From the NCBI RefSeq assembly GCF_029784155.1, contig NC_073692.1, forward strand, positions 316,538,105 through 316,602,104: DNA of 64,000 nucleotides, given 5' to 3'. The DNA is from Uranotaenia lowii (taxonomy: Eukaryota > Arthropoda > Insecta > Diptera > Culicidae). The translations under genes and the position numbers were made by a program. Under the pieces are notes generated by a model. That model was not told the DNA's origin. It was given only the letters and a program-made list of their open reading frames with translations, and did not search any database. Shown in pieces: positions 1 through 61,549 of the stretch. Position 1 is the first letter of the stretch, and every line of letters starts with the position of its first letter.

Positions 1-1866
1 GAGATCGTCAACGAGCTGTTCCCACAGCATGCGGTAGTGACATGGCCGAGGGTCCCATACGACTGGGATACGAGCGACGAGGAGAGGATTTCACTGGAGG
101 AACTGCGCGACATCGCTAAGTCCCTTCAGCTGAACAAAGCTCCGGGTCCGGATGGCATCCCTAACGTTGCAGTGAAGGCCGCACTCATGGAACATCCCGA
201 AATGTTCCGGTCTTCACTGCAACAGTACGTGGATGATAGGGTCTTCCCAGATGAGTGGAAGCGGCAGCGATTGGTGCTCCTGCCAAAACCGGGCAAGCCA
301 CCTGGTGAACCTTCAGCGTATCGACCGATATGTCTGCTGGACACCGCTGGCAAGGTTCTAGAAAAGGTGCTGCAGAGAAGGATCCAGCTCTACACCGAAG
401 GAGCGAACGGCCTATCCGACGAACAGTTCGGTTTCCGGAAAGGTCGTAGCACGGTGGATGCCATTCGACTGGTCATCGAAAGGGCAGATGAAGCCAGGTT
501 GAGGAAACGGAGAGGAGATCGGTTTTGCGCAGTGGTCACTCTCGACGTTAAGAACGCGTTTAACAGCGTCAGTTGGGCAGCGATTGCGTCGTCGCTCATC
601 AACATGAGGATTCCGGCATATATCTGTAGGATGGTGGAGTGTTACTTCCGTGACCGCCAACTACAGTATATGACCAGCGAGGGACTGGAAACAGTGAGAG
701 TCTCGGCAGGGGTTCCACAAGGATCGATACTTGGCCCGGTATTGTGGAACATCGTCTACGACGAACTGCTGAGACTGCGTCTCCCCACTGGAGTGAGACT
801 CGTGGGATTCGCCGACGACGTAGTTCTCCTGGCAACGGGCCCGTCCACGGAGGAAGTACAGCTACTTGCCACAGTAGCTATCGAGAAGGTGGAAAACTGG
901 ATGCGCTCTAAGAGCCTACGCCTAGCACACCACAAGACCGAGATGGTGCTGATCACTAACTTGATTTCGGCACAATCCGGGACGATCGCAGTTGGACCGT
1001 GTGCAATCGAGTCCAAACGTGCGGTGAAATACCTGGGGGTGATGATCGACGACCGGCTGAGCTTTACGGCCCACGTCGACTATGCCTGCAAAAGAGCGGC
1101 AATGGCGACAGCAGCCCTCTCACGGGCCATGTCGAACAACTCGGCGATCCGCTGCAGCAGAAGGAGGGTCCTGGCGAGCGTGACCTCGTCCATTCTGCGT
1201 TACGGAGTGGCAGCCTGGAAGGCAGCCTTGAGTAGGCAGTGTAATCTGCAACAGCTCTGCAGGGTGCAGCGGCTGATGAACCTGCGTGTAATCAGCGCAT
1301 ACCGAACGGTGTCCTCGGTAGCTGCTGATGTTGTGGCGGGGGTCATGCCCATCTCGGTCTTGCTAGAGGAAGATGCCTTCTGCTACGAGAACAGGCACGT
1401 GCCCGACGTGCGGAAACATGCCAGAGAGAACTCGCTGTCCAACTGGCAGCACCAGTGGGACAGCTCGGAACGTGGCCGGTGGACCCATCGCTTGATCCCT
1501 AATATCGGATCCTGGATGGATCGAAGACATGGTGAGGTGGACTTTTGCATGACACAGTTCCTGACTGGCCATGGATGTTTCATGCAGTACCACCATCGGT
1601 TTGGACACGTGGATTCGCCATCCTGTCTAACCTGCGGAGACATAATTGAGACGCCAGAACACGTAGTGTTCAGCTGTCCAAGGTTCGAGGAGGTACGTGC
1701 TAACATGCTTGCCGCCTGCGGACCAGACACGACAGCCGACAACATAGTGCAGAGGATGTGCGAAGACGCCAACACTTGGCGCGTGGTCAGCGATGGGTTC
1801 ACCCGGATCATGACTGCCCTGCAGAGGAGTTGGAACCAGCACCAGTCCGCGATCGGTGTAGGGTGA
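1..1866 (+). CDS. R1-clade non-LTR retrotransposon, reverse transcriptase part of ORF2 (5' end outside window)
   Basis: The frame is open from base 1 to a TGA at 1864-1866, so the ORF starts to the left of the window and any internal GTG or ATG start is arbitrary. It encodes the reverse transcriptase used for target-primed insertion. Visible motifs in order are a fingers block with KAPGPDG, LPKPGKPPGEPSAYRPI, the palm motif LDVKNAFNSVSW, AGVPQGSILGP, the catalytic GFADDVV (around nt 804-825) and the thumb. A C-terminal zinc motif of form C-X2-C-X8-H-X4-C (CLTCGDIIETPEHVVFSC) follows near nt 1621-1675. No stop or frameshift interrupts the visible part. The NAFN-type palm motif and the C-terminal CCHC with no RNase H fit the R1 clade. 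The endonuclease and ORF1 are not in view. Composition is GC-richer than the AT-rich surroundings, consistent with a recently active element. Confidence 0.88.
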   Translation, partial: EIVNELFPQHAVVTWPRVPYDWDTSDEERISLEELRDIAKSLQLNKAPGPDGIPNVAVKAALMEHPEMFRSSLQQYVDDRVFPDEWKRQRLVLLPKPGKPPGEPSAYRPICLLDTAGKVLEKVLQRRIQLYTEGANGLSDEQFGFRKGRSTVDAIRLVIERADEARLRKRRGDRFCAVVTLDVKNAFNSVSWAAIASSLINMRIPAYICRMVECYFRDRQLQYMTSEGLETVRVSAGVPQGSILGPVLWNIVYDELLRLRLPTGVRLVGFADDVVLLATGPSTEEVQLLATVAIEKVENWMRSKSLRLAHHKTEMVLITNLISAQSGTIAVGPCAIESKRAVKYLGVMIDDRLSFTAHVDYACKRAAMATAALSRAMSNNSAIRCSRRRVLASVTSSILRYGVAAWKAALSRQCNLQQLCRVQRLMNLRVISAYRTVSSVAADVVAGVMPISVLLEEDAFCYENRHVPDVRKHARENSLSNWQHQWDSSERGRWTHRLIPNIGSWMDRRHGEVDFCMTQFLTGHGCFMQYHHRFGHVDSPSCLTCGDIIETPEHVVFSCPRFEEVRANMLAACGPDTTADNIVQRMCEDANTWRVVSDGFTRIMTALQRSWNQHQSAIGVG

Positions 1867-2755
1867 CTCCTTCGTCGGGGAGCACCTGAGTAGTGTGCGT
1901 CCGACCCTGGCAGTAAAGCATACAAAGATAAGACTATACCTTCTGCGTATGCCGAGCTGCTAGGTACGTCGCGCGTCTGTGTGTAGGATACCTCCAACGT
2001 TATCGTCGCGGAGTATCCGAGTCGAACGCGCCCTCTACGACGGAGGCTGTGGGGATAAGACTATACCTTCTTCGCAGTCGAATTCGTAGGGGGAAGAGTA
2101 TTCACGTCGCGGAATACTCTCGGGTAGAGTGGTCTCACGTCGCCGCCGGATGAGCCACTCGAGTCGGGTAGGATGACATCACCGTCGGGATTCATCTGAG
2201 TCGTAAGCGTCTAAGACCCGTACGTGTGCTGTGACAGGCGCGAGTCCAGGATAAGCTGCTCTCGATTCGGCACACGGCGGGCAAAAACCCTAGGGTTGCC
2301 AGCCAAAAAGGGAGGAGGAAGACCGGACCACGGTCGGAGTAGAATGTCCTTTCGGCGGGGGGCATTCGAGTAGTGTGCGTCCGATCCTAGCAGTAAAGCA
2401 TACAAAGATAAGACTATACCTTCTGCGTATGCCGAGCTGTTTAGGCACGTCGCGATCGTTGTGTAAGATACCTCCATCGCCGCGGAGTATCTGAGTAGAA
2501 CGCGCTCCCTACGAGGGAAGCTGCGGGGATAAGACTATACCTTCTTCGCAGTCGAACTCGTAGGGGGAAGAGTATTTACGCCGCGAAATACTCTCGGGTA
2601 GGGTGATTCACGTCGTCGGCGGGTGAGTCACCTGAGTCGGTGTAGGATGAATTCTTCGCCGGGAATCATCCGAGTAGTTTTCGTAAAGCCCCGGACGTGT
2701 GCTGTGACAGGCGCGAGTCCAGGATAAGCTGCTCTCGATTCGGCACACGGACGGG
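1862..2755 (+). repeat. Duplicated hairpin-rich 3' UTR of the R1-type LINE (two units of about 475 bp)
   Basis: Two tandem units (about 1862-2283 and 2342-2755, offset 472-480 bp) follow the stop codon. Each contains the same order of short hairpins: 1862-1886, 1986-2018, 2095-2120, 2127-2160 and 2170-2197 in the first unit; 2342-2367, 2466-2492, 2569-2594, 2602-2632 and 2645-2671 in the second. Loops carry CGTCG or CGCCG, and nearly every hairpin is followed by GAGTAG, GAGTCG or GGGTAG. The motif GATAAGACTATACCTTC occurs four times (from about 1927, 2054, 2407 and 2527), each time between complementary arms. Each unit also ends in a CGTGTGC/GCACACG stem. The first hairpin contains the ORF2 stop codon. 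LINE 3' UTR structure is recognised by the element's own reverse transcriptase in known cases; that role here is inferred. Confidence 0.8.
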
Positions 2756-3249
2756 CAAAGAGGAGAGGGCCTCGAGCCAAGCCAGGCGGAGCCAAGACCT
2801 CAAGTCGTTAGAGGCGAGGTCGTTGGTCTCTTGCAGTGGTCTCGAAGAGAGGCGGAGCGCACGTTTTTCGTGGGAACCAAGCTAGTCTCGATTTGCGAGT
2901 AAAGGCCGGATCTCAAGTCGTTAGAGGCGAGGTCCTTAGTCTTGAATCGTAATAAGAGGCAGGGTATATATGCTGGAGTTTGACTCGAACTGGAGTTTGC
3001 CGAAGAGCGCTTAAGCGCGGACTTGGTCTCCCATCTTGGGTACAGCCTTCGTTGCAGGTCCGGATGGGAATTATGGCCAGAGGCCCCAGGTGGACTTTAT
3101 GGCGTAGGGGTACATAGTATCATGAGTCGTCCAATTGCACCCATGGACCCAGAGTAGCATACTGGGGGGACTCGGTCGCTCGCCGTGCCTTGGAATGCAA
3201 TCCGTAAAAAGGATTTACCACCTGGGTGATCAACTAATAAAAAAAAAGT
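2756..3249 (+). other. Distal 3' tail of the R1-type LINE, ending in an A-rich tract
   Basis: No coding frame is convincing. A 23-bp sequence beginning CTCAAGTCGTTAGAGGCGAG is repeated about 112 bp apart (near 2799 and 2911). The stretch ends with AATAAAAAAAAA at about 3237-3248, directly abutting I-like LINE coding sequence. This could be the LINE's poly(A) tail, with the element inserted into or beside an older I-like copy. The boundary is inferred because no target duplication could be checked. Confidence 0.45.
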
Positions 3250-3957
3250 ATAGCAGCACGACCTATTGGACACTACATCATTGTTACAGATAGCCTTAGC
3301 TCTGTTCAGGCTATTCGCTCATTAAGGCTCGGAAAACACTCGCCGTACTTCCTTGAGAAAATTCGGGAATCACTGAGTACTTTATCTAGACTCTTCTTTT
3401 CCCTCACCTTTGTTTGGGTGCCGTCGCATTGCTCAATAGTGGGCAACGAGAAGGCCGACTCGTTAGCAAAGGTGGGTGCAGTTGAAGGTGTTATATATCA
3501 GCGTCAAATCGCCTTCAGCGAATTTTACTTTTTGGTCCGTAAAAATGCACTCGTCAACTGGCAGCGCAAATGGAACGAGGATGAGTTGGGTCGGTGGCTT
3601 CACTCGATTATCCCAAGGGTAAGCCTTAAACCATGGTTCAATAGATTGGACCTGAGTCGTGATTTTATTAAAACATTTTCCCGTCTCATGTCCAATCATT
3701 GTGCTTTGGACGCGTTACTCTATCGTGTGAATCTCGCTAGCAGCAATTTGTGTCGTTGTGGCCAGGGTTACCATGACATCGAGCATACTGTTTGGTCGTG
3801 TGAGGACCATCTTATCGCCAGAGCGAATTTGATCGATTCCCTTCGGGCCCGAGGTAAACCACCTAATGTTCCAGTAAGGGATGTGTTGGCTGTGGTAGAC
3901 CTAGACTATATGTTCGAATTATATCTTTTTCTTAAATCTATCGATCTCCGCGTTTAA
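3247..3957 (+). pseudogene. 5'-truncated I-like LINE ORF2 C-terminus (RNase H tail and C-terminal domain)
   Basis: The open frame from about 3247 to the TAA at 3955-3957 matches the C-terminal third of the I-like element at 14861-20593. Shared blocks are TDSLSSVQAIRS, FVWVPSHCSIVGNEKADSL (the last RNase H block) and a CxC...H...C region ending in DLDYMFELYLFLKSIDLRV. The frame has no stops but starts mid-domain and lacks endonuclease, reverse transcriptase and most of RNase H. It is therefore a dead copy, either truncated on insertion or cut by the R1-type element to its left. Confidence 0.85.
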
Positions 3958-4544: not shown

Positions 4545-6666
4545 TCTATATATATAAAAAGCAATTATCTGTATGTTTGTTTGTTTGTTTGTTTGTTTGT
4601 TTGTCCTCTATAGACTCAGCCGTCTTAAGAGCTAGAGATCTGAAATTTGGCATGGATGCTCATTAGGACCAGGAATGATGAAAAATGTTATAGATTTTTG
4701 GATGACCCCTTCCGAAGGGGGTCGTCCATACAAGACAAATATTGTTTTCGCGTTATTGACGTTATTTTCCGTCGGATTGTTATGAAATTTTGCACATGAG
4801 TGTTTTGAGAGACGAGCAATCGCTTACAGTTATCAAATTTAGGGTGAGGGGTCAGCCAAAGGGGTCGTCCATATCCACTGATTAATGTTTTTGCGATATT
4901 GGCTTTATTTTACATTGGATTGTGATGAAAATTTCCACGTGAGTGTTTTGAGAGACGAGCGATCGATTACAGTTATCAAATTTAGGGTCAGGGGTCGGCC
5001 AAAGGGGTCGTCCATATTCACTGAATAATGTTTTTGCGATATTGGCGTTATTATACATCGGATTGTGATGAAAATTTGCACATGAGTGTTTTGAGAGACG
5101 AGCAATCGATTACAGTTATCAAATTTAGGGTCAGGGGTCGGCCAAAGGGGTCGTCCATATCCACTGATTAATGTTTTTGCGATATTGGCTTTATTTTACA
5201 TTGGATTGTGATGAAAATTTGCACATGAGTGTTTTGAGAGACGAGCAATCGATTACAGTTATCAAATTTAGGGTCAGGGATCGGCCAAAGGGGTCGTCCA
5301 TATCCACTGATCAATGTTTTTGCGATATTGGCTTTATTTTACATTGGATTGTGATGAAAATTTCCACGTGAGTGTTTTGAGAGACGAGCGATCGATTACA
5401 GTTATCAAATTTAGGGTCAGGGGTCGGCCAAAGGGGTCGTCCATATTCACTGATTAATGTTTTTGCGATATTGGCGTTGTTATACACCGGATTGTGATGA
5501 AAATTTGCACATGAGTGTTTTGAGAGACGAGCAATCGATTACAGTTATCAAATTTAGGGTCAGGGGTCGGCCAAAGGGGTCGTCCATATTAACTGATTAA
5601 TGTTTTTGCGATATTGGCGTTATTATAGATCGTATTGTGATGAAAATTAGCACATGAGTGTTTTGAGGGACGAGCAATCGATTTCAAGTTTCGAATTGCG
5701 GATCAGAAGTCGGTTGAAGGAGTCGTCCATACCCAACTTTAATGTTTTTGCGATTTTGACGTTATTCTACATTGGATTGAGATGAAAATTTCCGCATAGG
5801 AGTTTTGAGGGACGCTCTTTTGCTTTCAGGTTTCAAATCTTGCCTCAGGGGTCGGCGAAAGGGGTTATTATCTGTTCACTGTTTTTACGATATTCTCTTG
5901 ATTGAGCATGGAATAGAATAGAATAGAATAGAATAGAATTGTAATGAAAATTGACACATGGTAGTTTAACAGAAAAGATAATTGATTTCAGGTGTCAAGT
6001 TTTGAATCGTGGTCAAAAAAAAGGCCGTCCATGTTAGTTGCTCACTGTTTTCGCGATATTGTCGTGATCATGCATCGGATTGAGATGAAAATGTTCAGAT
6101 GAGGGTTATAAACTATGAGCAATTGACTCCAGGTAGCATGTTCCGTGTCAAGGGTCGGCGAAAGGGGCGTCTATATTCACTGTTCACTGTTTGCAAGTTC
6201 CTGACGTTATTTTACATATAATTTGAAAAAAAAGATGGCACAAGGTAGTTTTGAGGAACGTAAAATTGGTTTCAATTATCGAATTTCGGGCCATGGGACA
6301 GAAAATGAGGGTTTCATTGAAAGTTCAGTGTTTTGTGCAATAATTTTGTTGGAGGCAGTTAATTGATACCAATTTAAGTTTGAAGGGCAAGCAAAAGAGT
6401 CGTGCACATAAACAAATAGTACATGTTTCTGCCATAATGTCTAGATTTTGCAATCGATCGAGAAGAAAACGCTCTCACATAAATTTTTGATAAAAAGCCA
6501 ATCAACCGTTTAATTTGAATTTCAAGTAATAGTAATAGTAGCGACTTTAAACACTGTTTAATTTTTTCCCCAAAATTGTCGAAAGAATGTTTGGAATTCA
6601 TTTTCTAAACTCATTTTGACGTACCAATGATTTAAAGCGAAACGAAGTTCGTACGGGATCAGCTAG
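4545..6666 (+). mobile_element. Non-autonomous Helitron with an internal tandem array
   Basis: It begins TCTATATATATAAAAAGC at 4545, followed by a (TTTG)n tract (about 4575-4604), and ends GGGATCAGCTAG at 6666 followed by T. The short inverted pair ACGAA/TTCGT lies just before the end. TC...CTAG ends without terminal inverted repeats or a target duplication fit Helitrons. No Rep/helicase ORF is present, so it would rely on an autonomous partner. Most of the interior is the 143-bp array described separately. Confidence 0.6.
4690..6330 (+). repeat. 143-bp tandem array inside the Helitron
   Basis: The landmark TGTTTTGAGAGACGAGC recurs at 4801, 4944, 5087, 5230, 5373, 5516 and 5659, exactly 143 bp apart, with an eighth copy one base short near 5801 and decayed copies to about 6300. 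Copies 1-2 resemble copies 4-5 more than their neighbours (variants CACGTGAG, GCGATCG and TATTCACTG), suggesting a past block duplication of 429 bp. Short ORFs here are by-products of the repetition. Confidence 0.85.
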
Positions 6667-6765: not shown

Positions 6766-6928
<163 letters not shown>

Positions 6929-60903: not shown

Positions 60904-61549
60904 ACAGGGGTCGTGCGAAAAACCTTGAATTTTTTGAATCTTGCAAAATTTCAAACTCGAAAATTTTTCGGCAAAAAATCATTTTTTTCGATTTTTGCTG
61001 GTCGGGGGTCGTGCGAAAAACCTTGAATTTTTTGAATCTTGCAAAATTTTAAACTCGAAAATTTTTCGTCAAAAAATCATTTTTTTCGATTTTTTCTGGT
61101 CGGAGGTCGTGCGAAAAACCTTGAATTTTTTGAATCTTGCAAAATTTTAAACTCGAAAATTTTTCGTCATAAAATCATTTTTTTCGATTTTTTCTGGTCG
61201 AGGGTCGTGCGAAAAACCTTGAATTTTTTGAATCTTGCAAAATTTTAAACTCGAAAATTTTTTCGTCAAAAAATCATTTTTTTCTATTTTTTCTGGTCGG
61301 GGGTCGTGCGAAAAACCTTGAATTTTTTGAATCTTGCAAAATTTTAAACTCGAAATTTTTTCGGCAAAAAATTATTTTTTTCGATTTTTTCTGGTCGGGG
61401 GTCGTGCGAAAAACCTTGAATTTTTCGAATCTTGCAAAATTTTAAACTCGAAAATTTTTCGGAAAAAAATCATTTTTTTCGATTTTTTCTGGTCGGGGGT
61501 CGTGCGAAAAACCTTGAATTTTTTGAATTTTGCAAAATTTAAAACTCGA
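60904..61549 (+). repeat. 98-bp satellite array running into a gap
   Basis: The unit GGTCGTGCGAAAAACCTTGA recurs at a 98-bp spacing from about 60908 to the gap (about 6.6 copies). Units are 92-97 percent alike by eye. Each contains TTTTTCGATTTTT. Open frames across it are repeats of a 32-33 residue block and not genes. Confidence 0.92.

Follow-up and report, generated by a model that had tools for sequence, protein, structure and literature searches.

A long interspersed nuclear element (LINE) of the mosquito Uranotaenia lowii carries, at the end of its second open reading frame (ORF2) and beyond it, an array of RNA structures whose fold, as several tests support, has been conserved by compensatory change beyond chance. 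The element occupies the first part of a 64,000-nucleotide stretch of contig NC_073692.1 (positions 316,538,105 to 316,602,104, forward strand), the whole of which is referred to here as the window and supplies the positions given below. The structured region, at 1853–2755 (~900 nt), consists of two tandem units of ~425 nt with sixteen modules altogether. Each unit contains, in order, h1, P2 (a long two-part stem-loop), h2, P4, h3, h4, h5 and a core. Unit 1 (1853–2281, plus strand) and its tandem paralogue, unit 2 (2334–2755, plus strand; direct repeats D1, D3 and D4), are 87% identical, and the ungapped repeat blocks are 90–92% identical. The family of the window element is designated family A, with units A1 and A2. 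A sister family in the same genome, family B (reverse transcriptase (RT) 78% identical to that of A), has the same two-unit array, with units B1 and B2. A preliminary description of this DNA had recognized ten hairpins in two sets of five, all of which are found within 1858–2677; the hairpins are thus real, but the array is larger than them, since each unit also includes two long stem-loops and a core.

Conservation of the fold

By minimum free energy, the sense strand of the region has a z score of -5.3 and the antisense strand one of -3.2, and in neither case was any of 20 shuffles as good. The working structure of 98 pairs was drawn on unit 1 with all four units (A1, A2, B1, and B2) in view. 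In unit 2, 97 pairs can be compared; 80 of them are as in unit 1, 9 carry a single change and 8 a double one. All 17 changed pairs are kept and none is broken, which bears out the earlier claim of a conserved RNA fold with compensatory changes. Placed against A1 by a structure-blind alignment, B1 and B2 keep 21 and 20 changed pairs, respectively (13 and 11 of them double). When the same substitutions were placed at random on paired sites of the same base, the mean number of broken pairs was 11.3, 27.2, and 23.8 for A2, B1, and B2, compared with 0, 10, and 9 observed, values never reached in 20,000 trials; for A2 the trials gave 11.3 ± 1.4 broken pairs, with a minimum of 5.

Because the 98-pair structure had been drawn with all four units visible, blind energy folds of single units (span limit 110) were also tested, each being scored on the other three units in a total of twelve comparisons. 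Broken pairs were below chance in 12/12 (P 0.0028 or less), and pairs kept through double changes were above chance in 11/12, the exception being B2 to A1 (P 0.16). The blind fold of A1 comprises 142 pairs, 80 of which fall within the 98-pair structure, and on A2 it leaves 9 of 134 pairs broken versus 17.8 by chance. Over the four units together, 95.0% of 382 cells are paired, as against 88.4 ± 0.9 in shuffled alignments and 33–51% when slid, and 23 pairs show double changes compared with 10.7 in shuffles (reached by 0/500). Further pair types exceed the shuffles weakly (23/500 reach the observed value). With 16 units, shuffles and slides agree with the four-unit result on percentage paired, double changes, and covariation score, while further pair types are no higher than in shuffles (353/500 reach).

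Selection among copies and the strand selected

Pairing is under purifying selection among the copies of the element. The copy-level analysis retained 26 distinct arrays of family A and 19 of family B, arrays having been dropped if their two cores were not 440–520 nt apart or if the first core lay <395 nt from the end of the locus; mutations within copies were tested in family A only. Stem changes private to one copy broke pairing in 21 of 34 cases, whereas those common to at least four copies broke it in 2 of 13 and kept it in 11 (Fisher P 0.008). Among the latter, pair 2716/2735, whose majority state is the broken one, was counted as broken. The preliminary description had named copies whose substitutions break the stems as often as they keep them as evidence against it: changes common to at least four copies mostly keep the stems, those common to two or three are evenly divided, and private ones do break them, as is expected of dead copies. 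The difference fits a pairing that matters during transposition and not after landing.

The selected molecule is most likely the sense RNA. Over 98 pairs and four units, the distinct changed pair states are 30 Watson-Crick, 12 G-U, 2 A-C, and 13 others. The excess of G-U over A-C (binomial P 0.013) recurs in 16 rows (23 versus 7; P 0.005), whereas the two kinds of transition are balanced at unpaired sites (33 versus 33), and it is from this combination that the sense strand emerges. Hairpins of the antisense strand or at the DNA level are less likely, given the stronger z score of the sense fold and the predominance of G-U.

Architecture of the modules

All modules lie on the plus strand. h1 is found at 1858–1893 in unit 1 and at 2339–2373 in unit 2. 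The preliminary description had the hairpins follow the reading frame; instead, the first of them holds the ORF2 stop codon TGA (1864–1866), the A of which is the bulged base. In family B, a TGA occurs at the same place and in the same frame within h1. P2 occupies 1906–1964 and 2386–2445, and P4 2031–2093 and 2505–2567. The top of both long stem-loops, GATAAGAC-NNN-ACCTTCT, is almost invariant in family A and varies slightly in B, the triplet excepted. Most of the outer stem of P2 is re-paired in family B, and P2 of unit 1 is the worst-aligned stem under plain alignment (82.8% of cells paired). The NNN triplet is hypervariable between subfamilies and includes some of the array's most variable positions; yet in the window element all four triplets (1935–1937, 2062–2064, 2415–2417, and 2536–2538) read TAT, and at locus L024 all four read TTT.

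The remaining hairpins are h2 (1983–2024 and 2463–2498), h3 (2092–2127, with 9 bp, in unit 1 and 2566–2601 in unit 2), h4 (2124–2166 and 2598–2639), and h5 (2168–2203 and 2642–2677). The stem changes quoted earlier for h1, h2, and h4 are correct. The hairpin at 2569–2594, in h3, had been said to gain a T/A pair, which it does not: unit 1 has AGAGTATTC/GAATACTCT, and unit 2 exchanges the last C-G of this stem for T-A, a compensatory change. Each unit closes with a core stem, at 2217–2281 (GTGTGCTGTGACAGGCGCGAGTCCAGGATAAGCTGCTCTCG...GGCACAC) and 2690–2755. Outer stems around h2 (GCGCGT/ACGCGC in A1) were considered and excluded from the structure, being inconsistent by eye in A2 and B. A scan with the covariance models of Rfam 15 found none matching within 1853–2755 at E values up to 10.

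A recurrent hairpin motif

From one element each of families A and B, the twenty short hairpins (35–43 nt) were cut out by anchors chosen by the analyst. They begin with GTAG or GTAA in all except the four h3, and all 20 end with GAGTAG, GAGTCG or GGGTAG, the sequences that the preliminary description had seen to follow the hairpins. A motif model was built from 11 of them (h1 and h5 of the four units and h2 of three). In the modelled shape, a stem of 5 bp is followed by a single bulged base in most cases (8/11), a 4-bp stem, and an 8-nt loop, all between constant flanks (GUA before and GAGU(A/C)G after). The loop contains CGNCG in 9/11. In the alignment of the 11 hairpins, 7 of 9 pairs have changed on both sides, and further pair types are unremarkable (100/500 shuffles reach the observed value).

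A search with a hairpin covariance model had also been suggested, and was carried out on the window and on the loci of families C and D and L079. The model recovers 5 of the 9 hairpins held out of it, namely h2 of A1 (E value 1.9e-8) and all four h4 (E values 4e-4 and 7e-5 for units 1 and 2 of the window element). Thus, a single shape recurs in four of the five hairpin types of each unit, with h3 off the motif, and the multi-site protein binding proposed earlier is plausible. The model also picks out hairpins of L080, which is related to family B but has diverged. At E <0.2 it matched nothing elsewhere in the 64-kb window, in the 5' stretch L079, in four family C loci, or in one family D locus.

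The host element

Sequence comparison supports the assignment of the host element to the Waldo-like LINEs of the R1 clade, in agreement with the R1-type LINE recognized at the outset. Positions 1–1866 (plus strand) encode the C-terminal 621 amino acids of ORF2, with the RT domain (PF00078, E value 5.3e-37). The total frame is ~995 amino acids and includes an apurinic/apyrimidinic (APE)-type endonuclease and the RT; a 994-amino acid ORF2 stretch scanned at locus L016 yielded PF14529 and PF03372 (APE endonuclease), followed by PF00078. Upstream of ORF2 is a 497-amino acid frame, the end of which is a zinc-knuckle-like stretch, as judged by eye. The closest named RT relatives are labelled Waldo-6 and Waldo-3 by their sources (51–55% identity), and identity to the database relatives, Anopheles sequences with Waldo labels among them, spans 41–59% among the matches listed. 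In a tree of 18 chosen homologues, with support weak at some deep nodes (0.07–0.88), the RTs of family A and its sister B are nested among the others, Waldo-6 and Waldo-3 included. Waldo is a member of the R1 clade and is defined by insertion into ACAY repeats. Among distinct 3' flanks, a CA/CATA repeat is present in 3/30 of family A and 6/23 of family B, compared with 165 of 20,000 random 40-mers of the window scored by the same rule; the repeat is enriched, but its presence is not strict. Two proteins of the wasp Trichogramma (P0105 and P0092, 43–44% identity) are nested in the Waldo-like tree, which may possibly reflect horizontal transfer or a wide distribution.

A DNA search with 1862–2677 found at least 40 places, the window's own included, at 96–100% identity with the query nearly fully covered (12 of them at 100%, and one covering only 779/816 of the query), and one further place at 73%. 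The many near-identical copies show that the family has been active recently.

Several observations concern the surroundings of the array. The poly-A begins at about 3239, the array ending ~485 nt upstream of it, and is preceded by a 3'-terminal stretch (3054–3240, plus strand) partly common with family D. Between them, at 2796–2942, is a second repeat array, present as two 34-nt copies in family A; judged by eye, these repeats might fold into small hairpins (CCTC-N10-GAGG, with loops resembling GAGTCG), and downstream of the array in family B (L042, minus strand) there are eight matches to a loose pattern of this repeat. Within the RT frame, at 697–765 on the minus strand, there is a sub-threshold antisense match to the Rfam family mir-3389 (E value 7e-4; 34.6 bits versus a gathering score of 75); perhaps LINE sequence is included in this microRNA family. 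The element is flanked upstream by an RT frame (L079:256–2739) and, beyond the poly-A, by an open frame of 179 amino acids without a Pfam match (3418–3957). The element may have inserted inside another LINE, the shorter frame possibly being the continuation of the upstream one. Elsewhere in the window there are a 143-nt tandem array of 7.9 copies (4743–5865), a (GT)79 tract (6768–6925), and a 98-nt array of 6.6 copies (60907–61549).

Related families and history of the array

Site patterns over the four units separate A from B at 36 sites and unit 1 from unit 2 at 13, and are crossed at 3, and the linker between the units is, by eye, common to A and B. Together these suggest a single duplication before the split of A and B, with partial homogenisation since. 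Of 30 loci from the RT search (L016–L045), 26 have two cores (at most one mismatch), with a spacing of only 401 nt in L041; 18 of 20 further loci (L046–L065) have two cores 475–484 nt apart.

Families C and D were represented by four loci and one UTR (untranslated region), respectively, and for B, C, and D alike the copies read were a minority. Family C (L074, L075, L077, and L078) is without the hairpins; a core related to that of A (GCTGTGACGGGCGCGAGT...CGGCACACG) occurs in it twice in tandem, with the 36-nt spacing of conserved ends seen in A and B. In L074, matches to the 3' UTR of A are confined to these two cores, and the fold predicted for the family C cores is unlike that of A. Copies of family D have intact ORFs of 1007 amino acids, and a variant of 1009 amino acids was seen in the search with protein queries. 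The one family D UTR read (L076, ~400 nt) contains no array; it ends in poly-A beside a CA repeat, and by BLAST it matches A only at 3054–3106 and 3169–3233. Protein queries P0064, P0001, and P0074 returned only families A–D and near variants among the 46 best-scored places each, as judged by ORF length and score. No relatives were confirmed in viral contigs.

Possible functions of the array

We tentatively favour a role for the array as a multivalent docking platform in the sense RNA, serving ribonucleoprotein (RNP) assembly or the selection of RNA. A protein-binding array is plausible in view of the many copies, in which flanks and loop letters stay constant and the bulge recurs. One protein would bind the repeated hairpins many times through their constant flanks and loops; the putative binder would most likely be the element's own ORF1p or ORF2p, and binding would single out the element's RNA and pack it into the transposing RNP (cis preference). 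Initiating reverse transcription would probably fall to the 3'-terminal stretches common with the array-less family D. Two reports make the element's own proteins the likeliest partners: the proteins of SART1Bm, an R1-clade element, mobilise RNA in trans only with its 3' UTR (PMC7265360), and binding to a 3' stem-loop is on record for the ORF2 of a LINE (PMC4176376). In a more specific form, which we regard as possible but doubtful, the array would be a LINE-encoded operator array, in which one bulged-hairpin motif, interleaved with GATAAG stem-loops and the core and duplicated as a whole, is coated cooperatively by the element's protein, which would thereby select its RNA.

Several points weigh against this proposal. 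Under plain alignment, 10 of 93 pairs in B1 and 9 of 94 in B2 are broken relative to A1, and family A changes present in two or three copies are evenly divided (6 kept and 6 broken). The four h3 hairpins are not matched by the motif model. As the motif was not found in C or D, binding by ORF1p or ORF2p, if real, would be lineage-specific. Locus L026 has exactly one unit, the other having been lost by a switch inside the identical core; its 3' flank shows a CATA repeat and its open frame has 969 amino acids, so that the second unit may be dispensable. The position of the stop codon in h1 is a hint of a role in translation or termination instead. Finally, the binding partner is putative.

Among the other explanations, the array might act in template recognition for target-primed reverse transcription, with ORF2p choosing and positioning the RNA by analogy with SART1 and zebrafish L2. 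SART1Bm requires its 3' UTR, and after a deletion there reverse transcription begins at another place, immediately 3' of a stem-loop (PMC7265360); in the L2 clade, the stem-loop bound by ORF2 is that of the 3' tail (PMC4176376). The array of the window element, however, stops ~485 nt short of the poly-A, and family D, with its intact ORFs, lacks the array at L076 and matches A only near the 3' end. The absence of the array at this locus, together with the common 3'-terminal stretches, indicates that the array is probably not the basic start signal of reverse transcription, and it weakens the preliminary suggestion of the reverse transcriptase as the specific binder. Since family D apparently manages without it, RNP assembly or RNA choice is the likelier function, and we consider template recognition unlikely.

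It is improbable that the array is an element of RNA stability, nuclease resistance or translation, comparable to the duplicated 3' UTR structures of mosquito-borne flaviviruses. The array does start at the stop codon, and the dengue dumbbells are tandem, near-identical 3' UTR structures, selected differently in the two hosts, but they overlap genome-cyclisation signals (PMC6325252), a use not known for LINEs. For five conserved stretches of the array, perfect complements in the rest of the window element reach 9 nt at most, and cyclisation between the 5' and 3' parts of the RNA was rejected as a candidate for want of long complements. Flavivirus elements are included in Rfam, none of whose families matches inside the array.

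A fair but unlikely rival is that the hairpins are a germline localisation signal that docks a host dynein adaptor such as Egl-BicD and takes the RNA to the oocyte. Signals of this kind, both in host mRNAs and in I-element RNA, are recognised by Egl (PMC6114517), and several copies would be expected to raise the efficiency of transport; in the same report, HeT-A localised as before when a 3' UTR hairpin was mutated, and it bound Egl weakly or not at all. Moreover, the fixed primary sequence of the array (GATAAGAC, GAGTAG, and the core) exceeds what a shape signal would need. Most improbable is a neutral by-product, in which tandem duplication of GC-rich sequence produces apparent hairpins: the units do evolve partly in concert, and the prevalence of A|B over 1|2 sites means that their similarity is partly homogenisation, but the permutation, slide, blind-fold, private-versus-shared, and strand tests are all contrary.

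A ~900-nt, strongly covarying fold, repeated twice in an element with many intact copies, is a directly testable system for RNA choice. Hairpin, GATAAG stem-loop, and core are separable as baits or deletions, sister family D, without the array at the locus read, is a natural control, and the array adds a structured RNA to those without a match in Rfam 15. To our knowledge, the choice of their own RNA by LINE proteins is known in detail for few elements only.

Comparison with known systems

Structures in LINE 3' UTRs are known as a kind, but a two-unit, sixteen-module array with such covariation appears to be new, none having been found in a literature search at the level of its results overview. 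The nearest named RTs are those of mosquito Waldo elements, which families A and B also resemble in the CA/CATA enrichment of their 3' flanks; the same overview yielded no RNA structure for a Waldo 3' UTR. SART1Bm is similar in belonging to the R1 clade, and in having two ORFs, 3' UTR stem-loops, a poly-A, and a 3' UTR required in trans. It differs in its telomere-specific target, and the portion of the source available describes no two-unit, ten-hairpin array (PMC7265360); its UTR seems, from the name of a construct, to be ~460 nt, compared with ~1370 nt in the window element. The zebrafish L2-clade LINE likewise has structured 3' RNA recognised by its own ORF2 (PMC4176376), but it belongs to another clade and uses a stem-loop of the 3' tail, whereas ~485 nt or more separate the 16 modules of the window element from its 3' end. 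The dengue dumbbells share tandem duplication in a 3' UTR, the RNA that carries them being one replicated in mosquitoes (PMC6325252); they are viral, the array has no Rfam match, and the likeness is an analogy only.

The operators of phages MS2 and PP7 consist of a short stem with a bulge a few base pairs below the loop, are bound by protein, and are used in arrays. The hairpins of the window element are similar in shape, without homology, and their binder is putative. If the operator reading were true, selection would act on the number of binding sites that a LINE RNA carries, and the phage operator arrays would have a natural counterpart in this element.

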